Shown piece after piece: positions 51,295 through 60,410 of a DNA stretch of 64,000 nucleotides. The stretch covers positions 248,001-312,000 of the forward strand of contig NZ_CP045875.1 of assembly GCF_009649955.1 (NCBI RefSeq), written 5' to 3'. The translations under genes were made by a program, and so were the position numbers. How positions within the stretch are numbered: position 1 is the first letter of the stretch; every line of letters begins with the position of its first letter. Source of the stretch: Heliorestis convoluta. Lineage in GTDB: Bacteria; Bacillota; Desulfitobacteriia; Heliobacteriales; Heliobacteriaceae. Below the pieces are notes generated by a model. That model saw only the letters and a program-made list of their open reading frames with translations, ran no database searches and had not been told where the DNA came from.

Positions 51295-52770
51295 GTGTTT
51301 TCTGTGGATAGTGAGAAAAGGTTTTTTAATGAAATGTTTGATCATTCCTGTGCCGTTCGACCTTGCTATGAGACAATTTATAATTATTTTAACAATCTAT
51401 CACCCATGATGCTGGAACATCTAAAAAACAAAGCGGAGCATGGTTTCGTCAACTTAGGAGTTACCTTTCGGGTTTATCATGAGTCAACGAGTATGGAGAG
51501 AACAATTCCTTTTGACATTCTTCCTCGTTTAATTCCTGAAGAAGAATGGACGATCTTAGATGAAGGATGTCGCCAACGAGTTCGAGCTCTCAATGCCTTC
51601 CTCTATGACATTTATCACGGTCAGGAAATTCTTCACGATCAAGTTATACCAAGAGAATTGGTCGTAACACATCCCGACTTTTGCTGGGCCATGGCAGGAC
51701 TCCATGTTCCATTAAATGAGTATATTACTTTAGCAGGTATCGATGTAATTCGAGATAATGAGGGCAAATATTTTGTCTTAGAAGATAACTTGCGCGTACC
51801 TTCTGGAATCAGCTATGTGTATGAAAATCGAAAAATGATGCAACAGCTTTTCCCAGAGCTTTGTCAAAATCATCAAATTGAGCCGATTATGCCATCTTTG
51901 AGCTATCTAGCGCGGTACTTGCAGTCTCTATCTCCCAGGCGGGTCTCCAAGCCTACCGTTGTCTTGTTGACGCCAGGTCCTTATAACGCCGCCTATTATG
52001 ATCACGTCTTTCTATCGCAGCAACTTGGTATTGACCTTGTAGAAGGCCAAGATCTAATGACCCTTGATAACCGCGTCTATTTGCGCAGCGTGGAAGGGTT
52101 GCGACAAGTCGATGTCATTTATCGACGTGTTGACGATGCTTTCTTAGACCCTCTTGTATTTCGACCCGACTCTATGCTGGGTGTGCCCGGACTTATGAGT
52201 GCCTATCGAGCCGGTCATGTTGCTCTGGCTAACGCGCCTGGCGCTGGTGTTGCTGATGACAAAGCCATCTTTGCTTATGTGCCTGCCATGATTCGCTACT
52301 ATCTCGGTGAAGAGCCGATTCTAGAAAATGTTCCTACCTTCCTTTTGAAGAATCGAGAAGAGCAGGAATATGTACTCCATAACTTAGAGAAAATGGTCGT
52401 CAAGAAAACAACGGGTGCTGGTGGCTACGGCATGCTTATCGGCCCGAAAGCATCAGAAGAAGAACTAGCCACGTTCCGTACCATATTGCAAGAAAAGCCG
52501 CATCACTATATTGCACAGCCGACCATTCAATTGTCGCAACACCCATCTTTTATCAATGGTGTTTTTAGCAATCGACACATTGATCTTCGGCCTTTTGTCA
52601 TAGGAGGCAAAAAAGTCATACCAGGTGGCTTAACTCGTGTTGCCTTGCGGGAAGGTTCTCTTGTAGTAAATTCTTCGCAAGGTGGAGGTAGCAAAGACAC
52701 CTGGGTTCTTCGAAGTCAAGGTGGAGAAAGGGAGTGCCAATTATGCTCAACCGTCAGGCCGACAGCTTGA
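51295..52770 (+). CDS. Circularly permuted type 2 ATP-grasp protein
   Basis: The protein has 491 aa and matches the CP_ATPgrasp_2 (DUF404/407) family: 'IPRELVVTHPDFCWAM', 'FVLEDNLRVPSGISYVYENR', 'VDVIYRRVDDAFLDPLVFR', 'KTTGAGGYGMLIGP' (nucleotide-binding loop) and 'SQHPSFINGVFSNRHIDLRPF'. ATP-grasp enzymes form amide or peptide bonds via acyl phosphates. In many bacteria this gene is linked to alpha-E and transglutaminase genes, as here. GTG start after GGAGGTG. The substrate is unknown. Confidence 0.92.
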   Translation: MFSVDSEKRFFNEMFDHSCAVRPCYETIYNYFNNLSPMMLEHLKNKAEHGFVNLGVTFRVYHESTSMERTIPFDILPRLIPEEEWTILDEGCRQRVRALNAFLYDIYHGQEILHDQVIPRELVVTHPDFCWAMAGLHVPLNEYITLAGIDVIRDNEGKYFVLEDNLRVPSGISYVYENRKMMQQLFPELCQNHQIEPIMPSLSYLARYLQSLSPRRVSKPTVVLLTPGPYNAAYYDHVFLSQQLGIDLVEGQDLMTLDNRVYLRSVEGLRQVDVIYRRVDDAFLDPLVFRPDSMLGVPGLMSAYRAGHVALANAPGAGVADDKAIFAYVPAMIRYYLGEEPILENVPTFLLKNREEQEYVLHNLEKMVVKKTTGAGGYGMLIGPKASEEELATFRTILQEKPHHYIAQPTIQLSQHPSFINGVFSNRHIDLRPFVIGGKKVIPGGLTRVALREGSLVVNSSQGGGSKDTWVLRSQGGERECQLCSTVRPTA

Positions 52771-53657
52771 TTTGGTTGGCCCGCATGATTGAACGGGCAG
52801 AAAACAACGCACGAATGTTAGAAGTATATTACGCAGAATCGCTAGAAGAAAAAGCATCATACTGGGAATCTCTCGTAGCTGTTACAGGCGACGTAGCACT
52901 GTATCGTCAACAATATAAAAACGTCGATAGCCTATCTGTTTTTGAATTTCTTTCTTTTTCTGATCAGAATCCCAACTCTATTTACTGTTGCTTGCACCAG
53001 GCCAAAGAAAATGCTCTCGTAGCCCGTGAAATTCTCCCCAATGAAATTTACGAAGTCGTAAATTCCTTTTACCTTGTCGTTCGCACTTGTGCGCAAAAGC
53101 TACAAGGGAAGTCTCCTCTAGAATTTTTACATCTCGTGAAAAAGCGTTCTCTTCTTTTTCAAGGTATGGTAGAAGCCATTTTGCCGCAAAACAAAGGCTG
53201 GGCTTTTCTCCAACTAGGTCGCTATCTCGAGAGAGCTGACAAAACAGCGCGGATCATTGATGCCGCTGTAGGCCATCCTAAGAGCCACCAAGAGAACTTA
53301 TGGTTGCGCGTTTTACTTTCTGTGAGCGCCTATGAAGCCTATCGCCGAGAATGGTGTGGGCGCATTGGAGCTCGAGAAGTAACTGAATTTTTGGTTCATC
53401 AAGCTGATTTTCCTCGATCTTTATCTTTTTCCGTTGCTCATGCACTAGAAGCGGCTGATAAAGCTTTTCAAAATGGCGCTCAAGTCGTAGAGCCCATTCA
53501 ATTGTTAGAGCATCTAGACCAACAGTTGCGGATGACAGCCATTGAGGAAATTGAAAGACAGGGCGTTCACAATTTCTTGCAATCTTTTCTCAGCGAAAAC
53601 AACAAAGTAGGGGATGCCGTGAATCATACACTGTTTCGCGGCCCAAGTACTGCGTGA
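52743..53657 (+). CDS. Alpha-E domain protein (DUF403)
   Basis: ATG 52743 follows GGGAG and overlaps the ATP-grasp gene by 28 bases, implying translational coupling. The 304 aa are almost all helical: 'LIWLARMIERAENNARMLE', 'FLQLGRYLERADKTARIID' and 'RSLSFSVAHALEAADKAF' are typical alpha-E signatures. It is thought to work with the ATP-grasp protein; no reaction has been assigned. Confidence 0.92.
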   Translation: MLNRQADSLIWLARMIERAENNARMLEVYYAESLEEKASYWESLVAVTGDVALYRQQYKNVDSLSVFEFLSFSDQNPNSIYCCLHQAKENALVAREILPNEIYEVVNSFYLVVRTCAQKLQGKSPLEFLHLVKKRSLLFQGMVEAILPQNKGWAFLQLGRYLERADKTARIIDAAVGHPKSHQENLWLRVLLSVSAYEAYRREWCGRIGAREVTEFLVHQADFPRSLSFSVAHALEAADKAFQNGAQVVEPIQLLEHLDQQLRMTAIEEIERQGVHNFLQSFLSENNKVGDAVNHTLFRGPSTA

Positions 53658-54523
53658 CTCTTTTGTCGGTTTATCACCGAACTTTGTACAGTTATTCCAG
53701 CAATGTATCGCGTGGAATCAGTGAAGTTCGCTTGACGCCCATGACTGACCAGAACCAGAGATTGCTTTCTTTTCAGCTCAAGACAGAGCCTTTAGGGGCC
53801 TTGCAGCAATCGATGGACGCCTTTGGCAATCAGGTCCACACACTGTGGTTCCCAGAGCCCCATGATCAATTGGTTATAGAGACGAGAGCCATCGTAGAAA
53901 ATCAGCAAGTCGAGAACAGTATAGTGCAACATAACAATATCTTACGAAACAGTGACGCTACCTTAGAATACGTTGACATAGAACAATGGTCTAAACAGAT
54001 CAAGCAAAGTCATGCTGAATGGTTAATGGAGACCTCCTATTGCCCTTTTCTGCCAGAAGTACAGATGATGGCTGAAAGCTTTCAAGGCATTTCGGGCGGT
54101 TGGCCTGAAATTTATAAAATGTCGAATTATATATACGAAAACTTTACCTATCAAGAGCAGGTAACGGCTGTAGGTTCTACCATTGATGCAATACTATCTA
54201 AAAAAGTCGGTGTTTGTCAGGACTTTTCTCATCTTCTACTTGCCTTACTTCGCTTTCAAGGCATTCCAGCACGATATGTTAGTGGCTATATTCCTTGTGG
54301 CGGTCCCTTGCGTGGAAGCGGTGCTTCTCATGCCTGGGTAGAAGCTTATCTGCCAGGAATAGGATGGCAAGGTATTGATCCTACCAACAATTGCACTGTC
54401 AATGACGCTTATGTCAAAGTAGCCCATGGTCGTGATTATCTCGACATCGTGCCCGTTAAGGGTCTTTATTGTGGCAGAGCAAGACAAAACTTGCAGGTAA
54501 CGGTATATGTACAAGTTTTGTAA
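53654..54523 (+). CDS. Transglutaminase-like cysteine protease family protein
   Basis: The protein has 289 aa with an N-terminal beta domain ('YSYSSNVSRGISEVRLTPM') and a transglutaminase core with Cys in 'KKVGVCQDFSHLLLALLR', His in 'GSGASHAWVEAYLPG' and Asp in 'GWQGIDPTNN'. GTG start overlaps the alpha-E stop by 4 bases. It may hydrolyse or transfer peptides produced or ligated by the ATP-grasp partner. No signal peptide is seen. Confidence 0.92.
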   Translation: MTLLSVYHRTLYSYSSNVSRGISEVRLTPMTDQNQRLLSFQLKTEPLGALQQSMDAFGNQVHTLWFPEPHDQLVIETRAIVENQQVENSIVQHNNILRNSDATLEYVDIEQWSKQIKQSHAEWLMETSYCPFLPEVQMMAESFQGISGGWPEIYKMSNYIYENFTYQEQVTAVGSTIDAILSKKVGVCQDFSHLLLALLRFQGIPARYVSGYIPCGGPLRGSGASHAWVEAYLPGIGWQGIDPTNNCTVNDAYVKVAHGRDYLDIVPVKGLYCGRARQNLQVTVYVQVL

Positions 54524-54604
54524 TACATTCATAGGTTTCGTGAAGCCATCCTCATAAGATTCCTATCGCTCCTTGAATCAGGAGCCTAGATTGGAGGTGG
54601 TCCC

Positions 54605-55588
54605 ATGGAGGAGAAGATCCTCACCATTCGCATGCCTGCTTCTGATCACTTTAGCATACGCAAAGAAGTTATAGGTTCCCGAAAGTTTGCTGACTCAAAG
54701 CGTGTTGCCATCATAGCAGGCATTCATGGTGATGAATTTGAAGGCTTATATACTTGCTATTTGTTACATCAACAGCTGCAAAATCTCATAGAAAAAAACG
54801 AGCAAGTGCTCACAGGGCAAGTAGACTTCTATCCTTCTGTCAATTCTTTAGGCCTTGGTAGTTTGAATCGAGCCTGGCCTTTTTTTAATGTTGACTTAAA
54901 TCGCCAGTTTCCTGGCACGAATGAGGGTCATGTTCCTTTGCAAGCGGCTCATGCGCTTCTACAAGATTTACAAGGCGCTGATCTAGTTGTAGATATTCAT
55001 GCTAGCAACCGCTTTGTCTTGGAACTACCACAAATTCGCATGCAAGAACACTATGCACCGCGCCTGTTGCCTCTGGCCAAGCGGTCTAATGTAGATCTTG
55101 TCTGGCTTCATGGATCTTCTACTATATTGGAGACCACGCTGGCGACCAATCTCAATGAAATGAACATTCCCACGCTCGTTGTAGAAATGGGCATTGGGCA
55201 ACGTCTGACCATTGGTTATTCCGAGCAATTGCTAAAAGGCTTGCTCCATCTATTGCGAGACCTTGGTATTTTGCAAATACCAGAAGAGCAACTACCTGTC
55301 TTGGGCTATCCTCGCATCATGAAAGATGAAGAAGTCTGGTACTTAAACGCCAAAGCATCAGGTCTTTTCGTACCTGAACAAGCTATTTTTGGCCGCTTTG
55401 TTCAAGAAAAAGAAAAGATCGGGCGCATTGTTGATCCCTTAAGTGGAAAAGATCTTCAGATTATTGAAGCACCCTGTGCCGGACTGGTCTTTACGCTGCG
55501 ACAACACCCTGTGGTCTATGAAGGCTCTCTATTAGGTCGCCTGGCTACGCAACCAACCGATTCGGTAGGAGGGGATGCCGATGCTTGA
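54605..55588 (+). CDS. Succinylglutamate desuccinylase/aspartoacylase family protein (first)
   Basis: A zinc hydrolase of the M14-like AstE/AspA family with 327 aa. Ligands are 'AGIHGDEFEGLYT' (His and Glu) and the distal His in 'VVDIHASNRF'. 'LNRQFPGTNEGH' fits the family. The C-terminal part (about 230-327) forms the beta barrel common to this group. ATG with GAGGTGG upstream, 81 bases after the transglutaminase gene. It probably deacylates an N-acyl amino acid or trims a peptide. Confidence 0.88.
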   Translation: MEEKILTIRMPASDHFSIRKEVIGSRKFADSKRVAIIAGIHGDEFEGLYTCYLLHQQLQNLIEKNEQVLTGQVDFYPSVNSLGLGSLNRAWPFFNVDLNRQFPGTNEGHVPLQAAHALLQDLQGADLVVDIHASNRFVLELPQIRMQEHYAPRLLPLAKRSNVDLVWLHGSSTILETTLATNLNEMNIPTLVVEMGIGQRLTIGYSEQLLKGLLHLLRDLGILQIPEEQLPVLGYPRIMKDEEVWYLNAKASGLFVPEQAIFGRFVQEKEKIGRIVDPLSGKDLQIIEAPCAGLVFTLRQHPVVYEGSLLGRLATQPTDSVGGDADA

Positions 55589-56564
55589 ACCGATTTTGAC
55601 ACTGAACATTCCTTTTCGTGAGCCCATGGTTCTTTATAAAAATGAGTTTCAAGGCACTGGCGAAGGACCCATCGTTTCTTTGGTATCAGGCATCCATGGC
55701 GACGAACTAAATGGCATTTACTTGTTAACACGGTTGGCTGCTTTTTTAGAAGAAGTCGTACAAGGGAAAAAAGAAGGCTACACCTTACAAGGAACGGTTC
55801 GCTTGGTTCCTGTCGTTAATGTGCCCGGTGTTAACTTTGCTTTACGCAACTGGCCTTTTGACGGCACCGATATTAATCGTATGTTTCCCGGATACGATCA
55901 AGGGGAAACAACACAGCGTATTGCCGACGGTGTCTTTCAAGCGACCTTGGGGTCTCATTATGCTTTTGATGTACATAGTTCGAACGAACAATTTTATGAA
56001 TTGCCCCATTTGCGCACTTTTTTCCCCGATGAACGGGAACTAAAGCTTGCGCCTTATCTGCGTTGCCCCTATTTACTCCATCGTGAGCTAACGCCCCTGT
56101 ATAAGACCCAGCTAGCCTACCTTTGGAAAGACAGTGGTATCTCTCCTTACATACTAATGCTCGGAGTGGCTCGACGCATTGATGAATCGATGGTGCAGCA
56201 AGTCTTTCATGGCTTAATCGACTTTATGGTAGCTACGGAAATTTTAGCAGGGCCGCCCCTTGCGCCACCACCGGCAACGCCCTTTTTCAGAACGGCCAAT
56301 ACGCACCTCGTTCTTTCTCAAGCAGCTGGTATTTTTCGTCCTACCGCTGTTGTTGGCACAGAGATAGAACAAGAAGATCTTATAGGGCACATCTACAATG
56401 TACTCACCGGAGCCTTAGAAGAAGAAGTGCGTGCGCCTGCTTCCGGCCTTTTGGCCGGCTTGCGCGCTTATCCCATGGTTTATGAAAAAGAGCTGTTGGC
56501 TCGTATTTTTTCGCCCCATGAAAGCTTAGAAAAGGGCTTTGATATTTGGTATCCAGAACAGTAA
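55581..56564 (+). CDS. Succinylglutamate desuccinylase/aspartoacylase family protein (second)
   Basis: A paralogue of the preceding gene with 327 aa: 'SGIHGDELNGIYLLTRL', 'DINRMFPGYDQGETTQ', 'YAFDVHSSNEQF'. Zinc residues are conserved. ATG 55581 follows AGGAGGGG and overlaps the upstream stop by 8 bases. Two unequal copies in tandem suggest a heteromer or two related substrates. Ends with a strong terminator. Confidence 0.88.
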   Translation: MLEPILTLNIPFREPMVLYKNEFQGTGEGPIVSLVSGIHGDELNGIYLLTRLAAFLEEVVQGKKEGYTLQGTVRLVPVVNVPGVNFALRNWPFDGTDINRMFPGYDQGETTQRIADGVFQATLGSHYAFDVHSSNEQFYELPHLRTFFPDERELKLAPYLRCPYLLHRELTPLYKTQLAYLWKDSGISPYILMLGVARRIDESMVQQVFHGLIDFMVATEILAGPPLAPPPATPFFRTANTHLVLSQAAGIFRPTAVVGTEIEQEDLIGHIYNVLTGALEEEVRAPASGLLAGLRAYPMVYEKELLARIFSPHESLEKGFDIWYPEQ

Positions 56565-57310: not shown

Positions 57311-58059
57311 ATGCAAAAGAAAGATGTGCCAGCTATGATTGCAAAAATATTTTGGTTTTGGTATGCCGTTGGCTTGGTTTTACTTTTTGTTGTTGGCGAT
57401 GTGCCTGCTATCTTGCATTTCTCGAACGGTCTTTTCAACCTTTTTTATGCTCTTTACGCCCTAGAATTAGATAGTGCGTTGCGTGAAAAGTGGACTTTGG
57501 TTTGGGGAAGAGCCATTATTATTGCTTTCTCTACTTTTTTTCTTGAGTGGTTCGGTACAAAGACAGGGCTTCTCTTTGGGGACTATAGCTATACCCACGT
57601 TCTTGGTGTTGCTTTGGGGACGGTACCTTGGCAATTGCCTGGGCTTGGGTGGGTGTCGTCATCAATGCTATCTTGTTATCAAGAGCGACCTCTCGATTTT
57701 GGAGAGGCTTGGAAGTCGGTTTTTGGGCTGTTGCTTTTGATCTGGTTTTAGATCCAGTTGCCTATGCCCGAGAATTTTGGATCTGGCATGACCAAGGTAT
57801 TTATTATGGCATTCCTTTGCAGAACTTTGTGGGCTGGTTTGTCATTGCCATGGTCCTTTCTTATCTATTTCCGATTCGCACAGTGCCTTATGAGGTTCGT
57901 ATGAAAGCGTTACGAATGTACCAAATGGTGTTACTCTTCTTTGGTCTTTTGGCCTTTCGAGAAGATATGACAGCTTTGTTGCTCCTGGCGCTGTTCATCG
58001 CAGCTCTGGCAGAAGGGTGGGTACGACGTGATCGAAGCTTCCAAAAGCCTTTGGTTTAA
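57311..58059 (+). pseudogene. cruF: CruF-like carotenoid hydratase (DUF422), frameshifted
   Basis: The first frame (57311 to about 57630) gives membrane segments and 'TKTGLLFGDYSYTHVLG', and the second (from about 57629) continues 'LAIAWAWVGVVINAILLSRA', 'DLVLDPVAYAREFWIW' and 'YYGIPLQNFVGWF'. Together they make one protein of the carotenoid biosynthesis (CruF, bisanhydrobacterioruberin/carotenoid 1',2'-hydratase) family. One T is missing near 57627-57630 (GTACCTTGG where GTACCTTTGG would be in frame). Real mutation, slippage or sequencing error cannot be told apart. Start uncertain. Confidence 0.78.
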
Positions 58060-58765
58060 GAAGCTCTTCTATTACTATAACGCATATTATCTCCTGCGTC
58101 GCCATTTTCACGCTCTTTATCTGCGCGGTCAAGTGGACCCCCTGCCGGCAAAGCCTGCGCTTTATATTATGAATCATAGCAGTTGGTGGGATGGTCTGCT
58201 CGTTTTTCATGTTGTAGAGACTTGTTCTCAAGGCGATCATTATCTGATGATGGATGAAGAACAGATGAAAAAATTTCGCTTCTTTCGACGGATTGGCGCT
58301 TTTTCGATTAACAAAAAAGAAGGGCGAGAGATTATCACTTCTTTAGATTATGGAGCGCACTTACTAAAGCAAGGGGCTTCTATCTGGATTTTTCCACAAG
58401 GTGATATCTATCCTTTAGAAAAGCGCCCGTTGCAGTTTCAATCAGGCCTAGGGCAGATTTTGCGTCAATGCTCTCAAGTCCCTGTCCTTCCCGTAACTTT
58501 GTATTACAGCCTCTGTCTTCACCAGAAGATAGAAGCTTCCTTTTACTTTGGTTCTTCCATCGAGAAAGACTGGGGCAGGATGACACGAAAAGAGATTTCC
58601 CAGTTCTTAGAAATATCTTTAGAAAAGCAACTAGATGAGCATCGCCAGATCATTTGCCAATATGGAAGAGAGGCCTTGCCTGAATTTTCGTTGCTCATGG
58701 CACCAGGACGTTCTACCAATGAATACTTTGAGCAATTTCTGAAAATGGTGAAGCCATGGAAATAG
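58028..58765 (+). CDS. Lysophospholipid-type acyltransferase (CruD-like)
   Basis: The protein has 245 aa of the PlsC superfamily, with the catalytic block 'IMNHSSWWDGLLVFH' (H-x4-D), 'FSINKKEGREI' and 'WIFPQGDIYPLEKRP' (P-x-G motif). GTG start overlaps cruF by 32 bases. Its place between cruF and a glycosyltransferase suggests it acylates the sugar of a carotenoid glucoside, as CruD does in green sulfur bacteria; a glycerolipid acyltransferase role is the alternative. Confidence 0.82.
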   Translation: MIEASKSLWFKKLFYYYNAYYLLRRHFHALYLRGQVDPLPAKPALYIMNHSSWWDGLLVFHVVETCSQGDHYLMMDEEQMKKFRFFRRIGAFSINKKEGREIITSLDYGAHLLKQGASIWIFPQGDIYPLEKRPLQFQSGLGQILRQCSQVPVLPVTLYYSLCLHQKIEASFYFGSSIEKDWGRMTRKEISQFLEISLEKQLDEHRQIICQYGREALPEFSLLMAPGRSTNEYFEQFLKMVKPWK

Positions 58766-59907
58766 TACTTTTCATCATTGTAGCAATGCTTGTGGCCCAG
58801 CTTTTCTTTGTCCTCTGGAATGGAAGCTATTTATCTTCTCTAACCGATCTTGCCAAGAAAGGGCAGTCCGACGCAGGTGCGAAGCCACAACAAGAACCTT
58901 TGGTATCTGTGCTGATTCCAGCTCGTAATGAAGAGAGTAACATCGACGCTTGTCTGGAAAGCGTTCTATCTCAGCAAGATCTAGCTTTGGAAGTCCTTGT
59001 CCTCGATGACGGTTCTACCGATGGGACGCCAGAAAAAGTCGCTTCCTGGACCGAACAGGATCAGCGCCTTTGCCTCATTAAAGGTAGGGCAAAGCCGGAG
59101 GGATGGATGGGCAAATCTTATGCTTGTCATCAGCTTGCGCAGCAAGCACAAGGAACGTGGTGGCTTTTTCTCGATGCCGATACAAGGTTGCGAAATCCTA
59201 AAGCACTGGCTAAAACATTGGCAGTTGCAAAGCAGCAAGGGAAAGGTATGATTACAGGCATTCCCTATCAGCGTACAGGCACCTGGATGGAAAAACTCAT
59301 ACTACCTATGATGATGTTCACCATCTTATGCCACCTTCCTTTGCGTCTCCTTCACAAGTCGTCCAACCCACTGTATTCAGCAGCCCATGGGGCTTTTCTC
59401 TTTCTTCATCGAGACAGCTATCGCGCTTTTGGCGGCCATGAAGCCTTTCGTAGCCATCTATTAGATGATATGCAAATGGCGCAAGCCCTAAAAAAAGCAG
59501 GTCATAGGCTTACCTTTGCAGCGATTCATCAAGATGTAGAAATGCGCATGTATCACAATGCGCAAGAAGTCTGGCAGGGATTTAAGAAAAATACCTTTTC
59601 CGGCTTGGGCCGAAGCTATGGACTTTTGCTTCTAATTACAACGTTTTACAGCTTGCTTTACCTGTTGCCACCTGCTTTATTTCTTTTTTATCTTTTGGTA
59701 AAAGGTACTTTTTTACCAACCGCACTGGTCGGATGGGTCCTTGCGATGGTAATCAAAGGTTTTATCGATAGAAAAAGTGACCAACCGCTTTGGTTAGCGC
59801 CCTTGTTGCCACTGAGTATATTCTTTATGCTCCTCATTGCCTGGGACTCAGCGCGTTCTGCTTTTTTGGGAAAAGGATATGCTTGGAAAGGTCGGCAGTA
59901 TGGGTAA
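58756..59907 (+). CDS. Family 2 glycosyltransferase (CruC-like)
   Basis: The protein has 383 aa. An N-terminal membrane helix, then a GT-A domain with 'VLIPARNEESNIDACLESVL', 'VLVLDDGSTDGTPEKV' and 'WWLFLDADTRLRNPK', and C-terminal membrane helices ('YSLLYLLPPALFLFYLLV'). It overlaps the acyltransferase gene by 10 bases. It probably glucosylates a hydroxylated carotenoid; this is inference from the neighbours. Confidence 0.85.
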   Translation: MEIVLFIIVAMLVAQLFFVLWNGSYLSSLTDLAKKGQSDAGAKPQQEPLVSVLIPARNEESNIDACLESVLSQQDLALEVLVLDDGSTDGTPEKVASWTEQDQRLCLIKGRAKPEGWMGKSYACHQLAQQAQGTWWLFLDADTRLRNPKALAKTLAVAKQQGKGMITGIPYQRTGTWMEKLILPMMMFTILCHLPLRLLHKSSNPLYSAAHGAFLFLHRDSYRAFGGHEAFRSHLLDDMQMAQALKKAGHRLTFAAIHQDVEMRMYHNAQEVWQGFKKNTFSGLGRSYGLLLLITTFYSLLYLLPPALFLFYLLVKGTFLPTALVGWVLAMVIKGFIDRKSDQPLWLAPLLPLSIFFMLLIAWDSARSAFLGKGYAWKGRQYG

Positions 59908-59984: not shown

Positions 59985-60410
59985 AAAATAGCTACTCTGT
60001 GGTGGGGTCAGGCGTTATGACTTCCTTCCGAACGGACTCATCCCACGCCATGAGCGGCAGCAAGCTGCCGATGGCTGAGGTCTGAAGTCCTCTCTCCAGG
60101 AAGTCATAACGCCTGACCCAGATACATCTTGCTGGTTGTGACTGAGTTTTGGCCTATTGCATTGCAAATATACAATAGGTAGTTGCGGATAGAAGAAAGT
60201 TTCGCCAAGCTATTCCAACGGAAGTAACAATCAGCAAAAAACTTCTGGGCCAGGGCATCACGCTTTCCGGAGCGGGACTTGGGACCTCAGCTGTCGCCAG
60301 CTTGCTGGCGGTAACAGCGTGGGACCAGTCCAGAGCGGAGGAAAGCGTGATGACCGGGCCCCTCTATGAAGTAACCCCAACGCAATCAGAAAAAGCTAAC
60401 TTTCATCAAA
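59985..60410 (+). repeat. Interspersed palindromic repeat, copy D (full length)
   Basis: Same layout as copy B. The module 1 stem is perfect over 21 bp (60005-60025 with 60099-60119). Module 2 here has a perfect apical hairpin CGCCAG-CTTG-CTGGCG (about 60294-60310). The right end overlaps the last five codons and stop of the phosphoribosyltransferase gene on the minus strand, and shares TTTCATCAAA with copy B. Confidence 0.9.

Follow-up and report, generated by a model that had tools for sequence, protein, structure and literature searches.

Overlapping cruF-like, acyltransferase and glycosyltransferase genes as a probable C30 carotenoid tailoring cassette in Heliorestis convoluta

Three overlapping genes of Heliorestis convoluta very probably form a C30 carotenoid tailoring cassette, contributing the hydration, glucosylation and C16 acylation of the carotenoid of this phototroph's genus. 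They occupy positions 57311-59907 of the window, by which we mean the whole 64,000-nucleotide stretch of DNA analysed here. Pfam profile matches identify a cruF-like hydratase gene (PF04240), a PlsC-type acyltransferase gene (AT; PF01553) and a family 2 glycosyltransferase gene (GT; PF00535), in this order and all on the + strand:

57311..57627, + strand: 5' part of the cruF-like hydratase gene (PF04240), from the open reading frame list, Pfam and alignment to H. acidaminivorans
57627..57628, + strand: cruF frameshift, a one-base deletion relative to H. acidaminivorans, from DNA alignment
57628..58059, + strand: 3' part of the cruF-like hydratase gene (PF04240, 71.8 bits), from the open reading frame list, Pfam and alignment
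58028..58765, + strand: PlsC-type acyltransferase gene (PF01553), with NH(X4)D and FPQG motifs and a GTG start
58756..59907, + strand: family 2 glycosyltransferase gene (PF00535), with a DAD motif and an ATG start

The initial annotation had described three overlapping genes in this order; the families, order, strand and overlaps hold, but the gene that it treated as a single cruF is split by a frameshift that it did not mention. The GTG start of AT at 58028 and the cruF stop at 58059 define an overlap of 32 nt, and the ATG of GT at 58756 overlaps the AT stop at 58765 by 10 nt. H. acidaminivorans (contig NZ_WBXO01000003) has the same gene order, its two overlaps measuring 32 and 13 nt, and the overlapping frames suggest translational coupling. 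The 5' frame of cruF is open from 57161 to a stop at 57751 and offers candidate ATG codons at 57311 and 57337, the latter aligning with the H. acidaminivorans protein. Both parts exceed the PF04240 cut-off of 25 bits (32.9 bits for the 5' part, 71.8 for the 3' part), while the CruF equivalog models, against which the halves were scored separately, gave the 3' half 55, 47.2 and 32.7 bits versus cut-offs of 154.7, 300 and 400 (TIGR03460, NF041333 and NF045693, respectively). AT matches PF01553 at 62 bits and carries the HX4D motif, here as NHSSWWD, which is present in 84/84 rows of the AT alignment. GT matches PF00535 at 88.3 bits, and its DxD motif (DAD in the window protein) recurs in 82 of the 83 rows of the GT alignment. 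Comparison with solved structures returned generic GT-A domain matches alone for GT and no matches for AT or CruF, and scans of the region for promoters and terminators yielded nothing beyond shuffled sequence (within about 1.4 sd).

Alkaliphilic heliobacteria are reported to have OH-diaponeurosporene glucoside C16:0 ester as their main carotenoid, and H. convoluta to produce OH-diaponeurosporene glucoside C16 esters (PMC7143216, citing the primary pigment papers Takaichi 1997 and 2003), in agreement with what the initial annotation had stated of Heliorestis-type heliobacteria. The available excerpts of this 2020 genome paper leave the genes for the last three steps unidentified, report crtM as absent and put forward a CrtC-like hydratase; the candidates named there are FTV88_0301 and FTV88_0302, which carry the annotation "carotenoid biosynthesis proteins" (PMC7143216). 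Extrapolation from the spacing of the two crtN copies and their tags places tag 0301 at about 303.3 kb versus 305.2-306.1 kb for cruF. Because the only two PF04240 matches in the H. convoluta genome both lie at this cruF, FTV88_0301 and FTV88_0302 are probably its two halves, and the two proteins of the genome paper would be one frameshifted gene. Among tags 0301-0304, a mention was found for 0301 and 0302 only, in a single paper of the literature available, and none for the neighboring AT and GT; we guess that AT and GT correspond to tags 0303 and 0304. The cassette offers candidate genes for the last three steps, which the genome paper had left unassigned.

This kind of cassette is already known from Bacillales; what is new here is its occurrence in Heliorestis, where these steps lacked genes. 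A search with the AT alignment returned 383 related stretches, of which the best 80 (78 from Bacillales and two from heliobacteria) were inspected. In 78 of these best 80 loci, cruF immediately precedes AT and GT immediately follows it, the exceptions being L033, which has no GT, and L045 (Heliophilum), with no cruF nearby. Since the same three genes recur in 78/80 independently found loci, the cruF-AT-GT unit is more than a chance arrangement. Open reading frames of the crtN type occur in 78 of the same 80 loci and are absent within the flanks only in the two heliobacterial ones; crtM stands directly upstream of cruF in 75/80 (not in the heliobacterial L030 and L045, nor in L090, L095 and L106), and all 20 Bacillales genomes tested, drawn from the 78 Bacillales loci, hold a CrtM family (PF00494) match above cut-off. 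H. convoluta shares the order, strand and overlap of the Bacillales cassette, but not the surrounding C30 cluster, in which crtM immediately precedes the cassette and crtN genes flank it on either side. Its cassette is not adjacent to crtN, the two copies of which (71% identical, tags 2648 and 3059, according to PMC7143216) we found at 2.53 and 2.92 Mb with 71.3% identity. The published cluster of Paenibacillus aurantius, crtNa-crtNc-crtM-cruF-LPAT-GT-crtNb (excerpts of PMC10673419), resembles that of Heliorestis in the cruF-AT-GT order with overlaps (loci L031 and following), and Paenibacillus sequences are the nearest outside heliobacteria in our trees; Heliorestis differs in having the three tailoring genes alone, away from crtN and with no crtM. 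The Bacillales loci L090, L095 and L106 contain cruF-AT-GT-crtN with no adjoining crtM, so that detached cassettes exist outside heliobacteria too. More distant cassettes were seen on plasmids of Cytobacillus spongiae (cruF-AT-GT-crtI) and Deinococcus deserti (carotenoid protein, AT, DoxX and GT), and on a Microvirga ossetica plasmid AT-GT lies beside a squalene/phytoene synthase gene.

In green sulfur bacteria, carotenoid glucoside esters are made by the glycosyltransferase CruC and the acyltransferase CruD, which act on C40 carotenoids that are hydrated by CrtC. By description they are alike in enzyme kind to the Heliorestis GT and AT, but the C40 backbone and CrtC set them apart; the Bacillales cassette is a nearer precedent than this pair, which the initial annotation had named. 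A C30 cluster of Planococcus maritimus iso-3 comprises CrtNa, CrtNc-like, CrtM, CrtNb, GT, AT and CruF (PMC8502411, in the parts available, as for the statements that follow). When its genes were expressed in Escherichia coli, CruF with CrtM and CrtNa gave 5-hydroxy-5,6-dihydro-4,4'-diaponeurosporene, and GT gave a glucoside of a diapolycopene-level alcohol, the CruF and GT products being identified by MS/NMR; the role of the acyltransferase is only speculated on there (PMC8502411). Judged from the published description, Planococcus and Heliorestis have the three tailoring families in common, and the Planococcus products match the Heliorestis carotenoid in kind; Planococcus differs in a further desaturation by CrtNb before glucosylation and in having crtM and crtN inside its cluster.

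By analogy, the Heliorestis orthologs probably act like Planococcus CruF and GT. CruF would hydrate 4,4'-diaponeurosporene at its terminal double bond to give a tertiary alcohol, the membrane-bound GT2 enzyme would transfer glucose onto the tertiary hydroxyl, and the PlsC-type AT would place a C16 acyl group on the glucose, resulting in the OH-diaponeurosporene glucoside C16:0/C16:1 ester. We infer the use of OH-diaponeurosporene by GT, the acylation by AT and the nature of its acyl donor from this scheme. Hydration, glucosylation and acylation of a C30 carotenoid, as first suggested from the sequence alone, is still the best reading given the crtM/crtN clusters in Bacillales, the Planococcus CruF and GT assays, the esters reported from H. 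convoluta and the co-occurrence of the three genes in 3/9 family genomes, with acylation as the presumptive member of the three steps.

Several observations count against this reading, namely, the frameshifted cruF, the listing of Heliophilum fasciatum with a plain carotenoid (see below), the lack of adjoining crtN and of crtM, the equivalog scores below cut-off, and the limits of the Planococcus precedent, in which the acyltransferase role is speculation and GT acted on the diapolycopene-level alcohol. The two parts of cruF lie in different frames, and alignment with the intact H. acidaminivorans gene shows a gap of one base between 57627 and 57628; a single reading frame is likewise intact in Heliophilum, and the break was seen in the one H. 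convoluta sequence examined. Compared with H. acidaminivorans, both cruF parts are 67% identical, and their differences are rich in third codon positions: the counts for positions 1/2/3 are 28/17/59 in the 5' part (97 codons) and 37/19/74 in the 3' part (143 codons), next to 68% identity for AT (56/40/124) and 62% for GT (118/73/221). The two cruF parts are under equal constraint, with neither relaxed; therefore, the break is either an assembly error or recent, and the deposited frameshift most likely reflects an assembly error or a recent mutation in culture. It is unlikely that the cassette is dead in H. convoluta, with cruF a true frameshift pseudogene and the esters either made through another, CrtC-like hydratase or lost in the sequenced culture. 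A one-base deletion, at which no obvious slippery heptamer for programmed frameshifting was found by eye, and the CrtC-like hydratase put forward in the genome paper would fit such a loss, but the cruF halves are conserved equally and to the same degree as AT and GT, and the main carotenoid is reported to be this ester (PMC7143216, in the excerpts available). The CrtC family (PF07143) also matched 0/9 family genomes, but this absence is weak, as the control matched 0/14 genomes.

Other functions for the genes are less probable still. That AT is an ordinary PlsC acting on membrane phospholipid, leaving a carotenoid role to cruF and GT only, is improbable: AT does belong to the PF01553 family and has a weak TIGR00530 match (44.3 versus a cut-off of 102.95), but its ortholog occurs in just 3/82 genomes of the class (E<=1e-20) and, in the best 80 of the 383 loci, always lies beside cruF and/or GT orthologs (80/80). 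This same linkage, together with crtN in 78 of those 80 loci, argues against an HpnB-like set for glycosylation of hopanoids or other lipids, which we consider very improbable. HpnB (TIGR03469) is the top NCBIfam match of GT at 199.3 bits, but this is below the cut-off of 379.25 (the next match, CruG [NF045692], likewise scores 106.5 versus 600), and none of the 9/9 heliobacterial genomes gave an above-cut-off match to the squalene/phytoene synthase family.

Within the Heliobacteriaceae, cruF (PF04240) was detected in 3/9 genomes, those of H. convoluta, H. acidaminivorans and Heliophilum fasciatum, with one further match among the 61 genomes searched, in a member of the same class (G025). The AT ortholog and full-length GT orthologs (5e-117 or better; next match, 3.6e-8) are found in the same three, while a GT2 match of some kind at E<=0.001 occurs in all nine. 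Orthologs of all three genes are absent from the other six family genomes, including that of H. modesticaldum. The initial annotation proposed to check whether non-glycosylating heliobacteria lack the cluster; Heliophilum fasciatum runs counter to this, provided that nothing is missing from its published carotenoid. Plain 4,4'-diaponeurosporene is given as the characteristic carotenoid of this species (PMC9147875, in the portion available), but it possesses intact orthologs of all three genes, with AT-GT (NZ_SLXT01000002) and cruF on different contigs. For Heliophilum, the cassette yields a prediction that can be tested. The Heliophilum contig with AT-GT (C2, 86505-99606) also bears a crtN copy, some 10 kb ahead of them and in the same orientation. 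One family member (G003, 87% complete) lacks all three cassette genes as well as any strong crtN-type match, and is perhaps not phototrophic.

Trees place the three heliobacteria in one clade (support of 94 for AT+GT and 96 for CruF) nested in a 20-row branch that is otherwise almost wholly Paenibacillaceae (support of 99 and 97, respectively). These trees were built from 31 or 29 of the 83-84 rows per gene, Deinococcus and Microvirga having been dropped from the second pair due to long branches. An AU test did not reject the arrangement of all Bacillales rows as one clade beside heliobacteria (p of 0.179 for AT+GT and 0.304 for CruF). Transfer is the better guess because the AT ortholog is confined to 3/82 class genomes, and acquisition of the cassette from a Paenibacillaceae-like source is thus favored, but not proven, by these sequence comparisons.

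C30 carotenoids have been reported from heliobacteria (PMC7143216, in the excerpts available), but no member of the squalene/phytoene synthase family (PF00494) was found above cut-off in any of the nine Heliobacteriaceae genomes. Weak PF00494 matches in 6/9 genomes (E of 0.02-0.48) were rejected as crtM: they look like IspA, a polyprenyl synthase, a call made by eye on loci L024, L026 and L028, and PF00348 matches the same six places at about 212-222 bits. A profile of Bacillales CrtM, built with 13 rows from the 20 best PF00494 matches, returned one chance-level match (E of 0.42) across the nine heliobacterial genomes, and the genes around the crtN copies, viewed by eye, included no crtM candidate. 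PF00348 has three matches in each of the nine genomes, read as IspA, HepT and a weak HepS-like protein; therefore, there is no spare synthase. The presence of crtM beside the cassette in Bacillales versus none in 9/9 heliobacteria sharpens the old question of what supplies the C30 backbone as substrate. As a tentative combined scenario, which we regard as possible though doubtful, heliobacteria might form this backbone with an enzyme that does not belong to the squalene/phytoene synthase family, Heliorestis and Heliophilum might finish the carotenoid with a cassette acquired from Paenibacillaceae-like bacteria, and Heliophilum might be an unrecognized producer of glucoside esters.

Upstream of the cassette (51295-56564) lie genes for a circularly permuted ATP-grasp protein, an Alpha-E protein and a transglutaminase, followed by two AstE/AspA-like genes, and their Pfam matches revealed no carotenoid link. 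Just 3' of GT is a strong palindrome (60005-60119; fold of -74.9 kcal/mol, z of -8.9), full-length or near-full-length copies of which, 96-100% identical, occur at 40 places in the genome (40 of the 88 candidates scored). It is followed by a second, partly related palindrome at 60247-60361.
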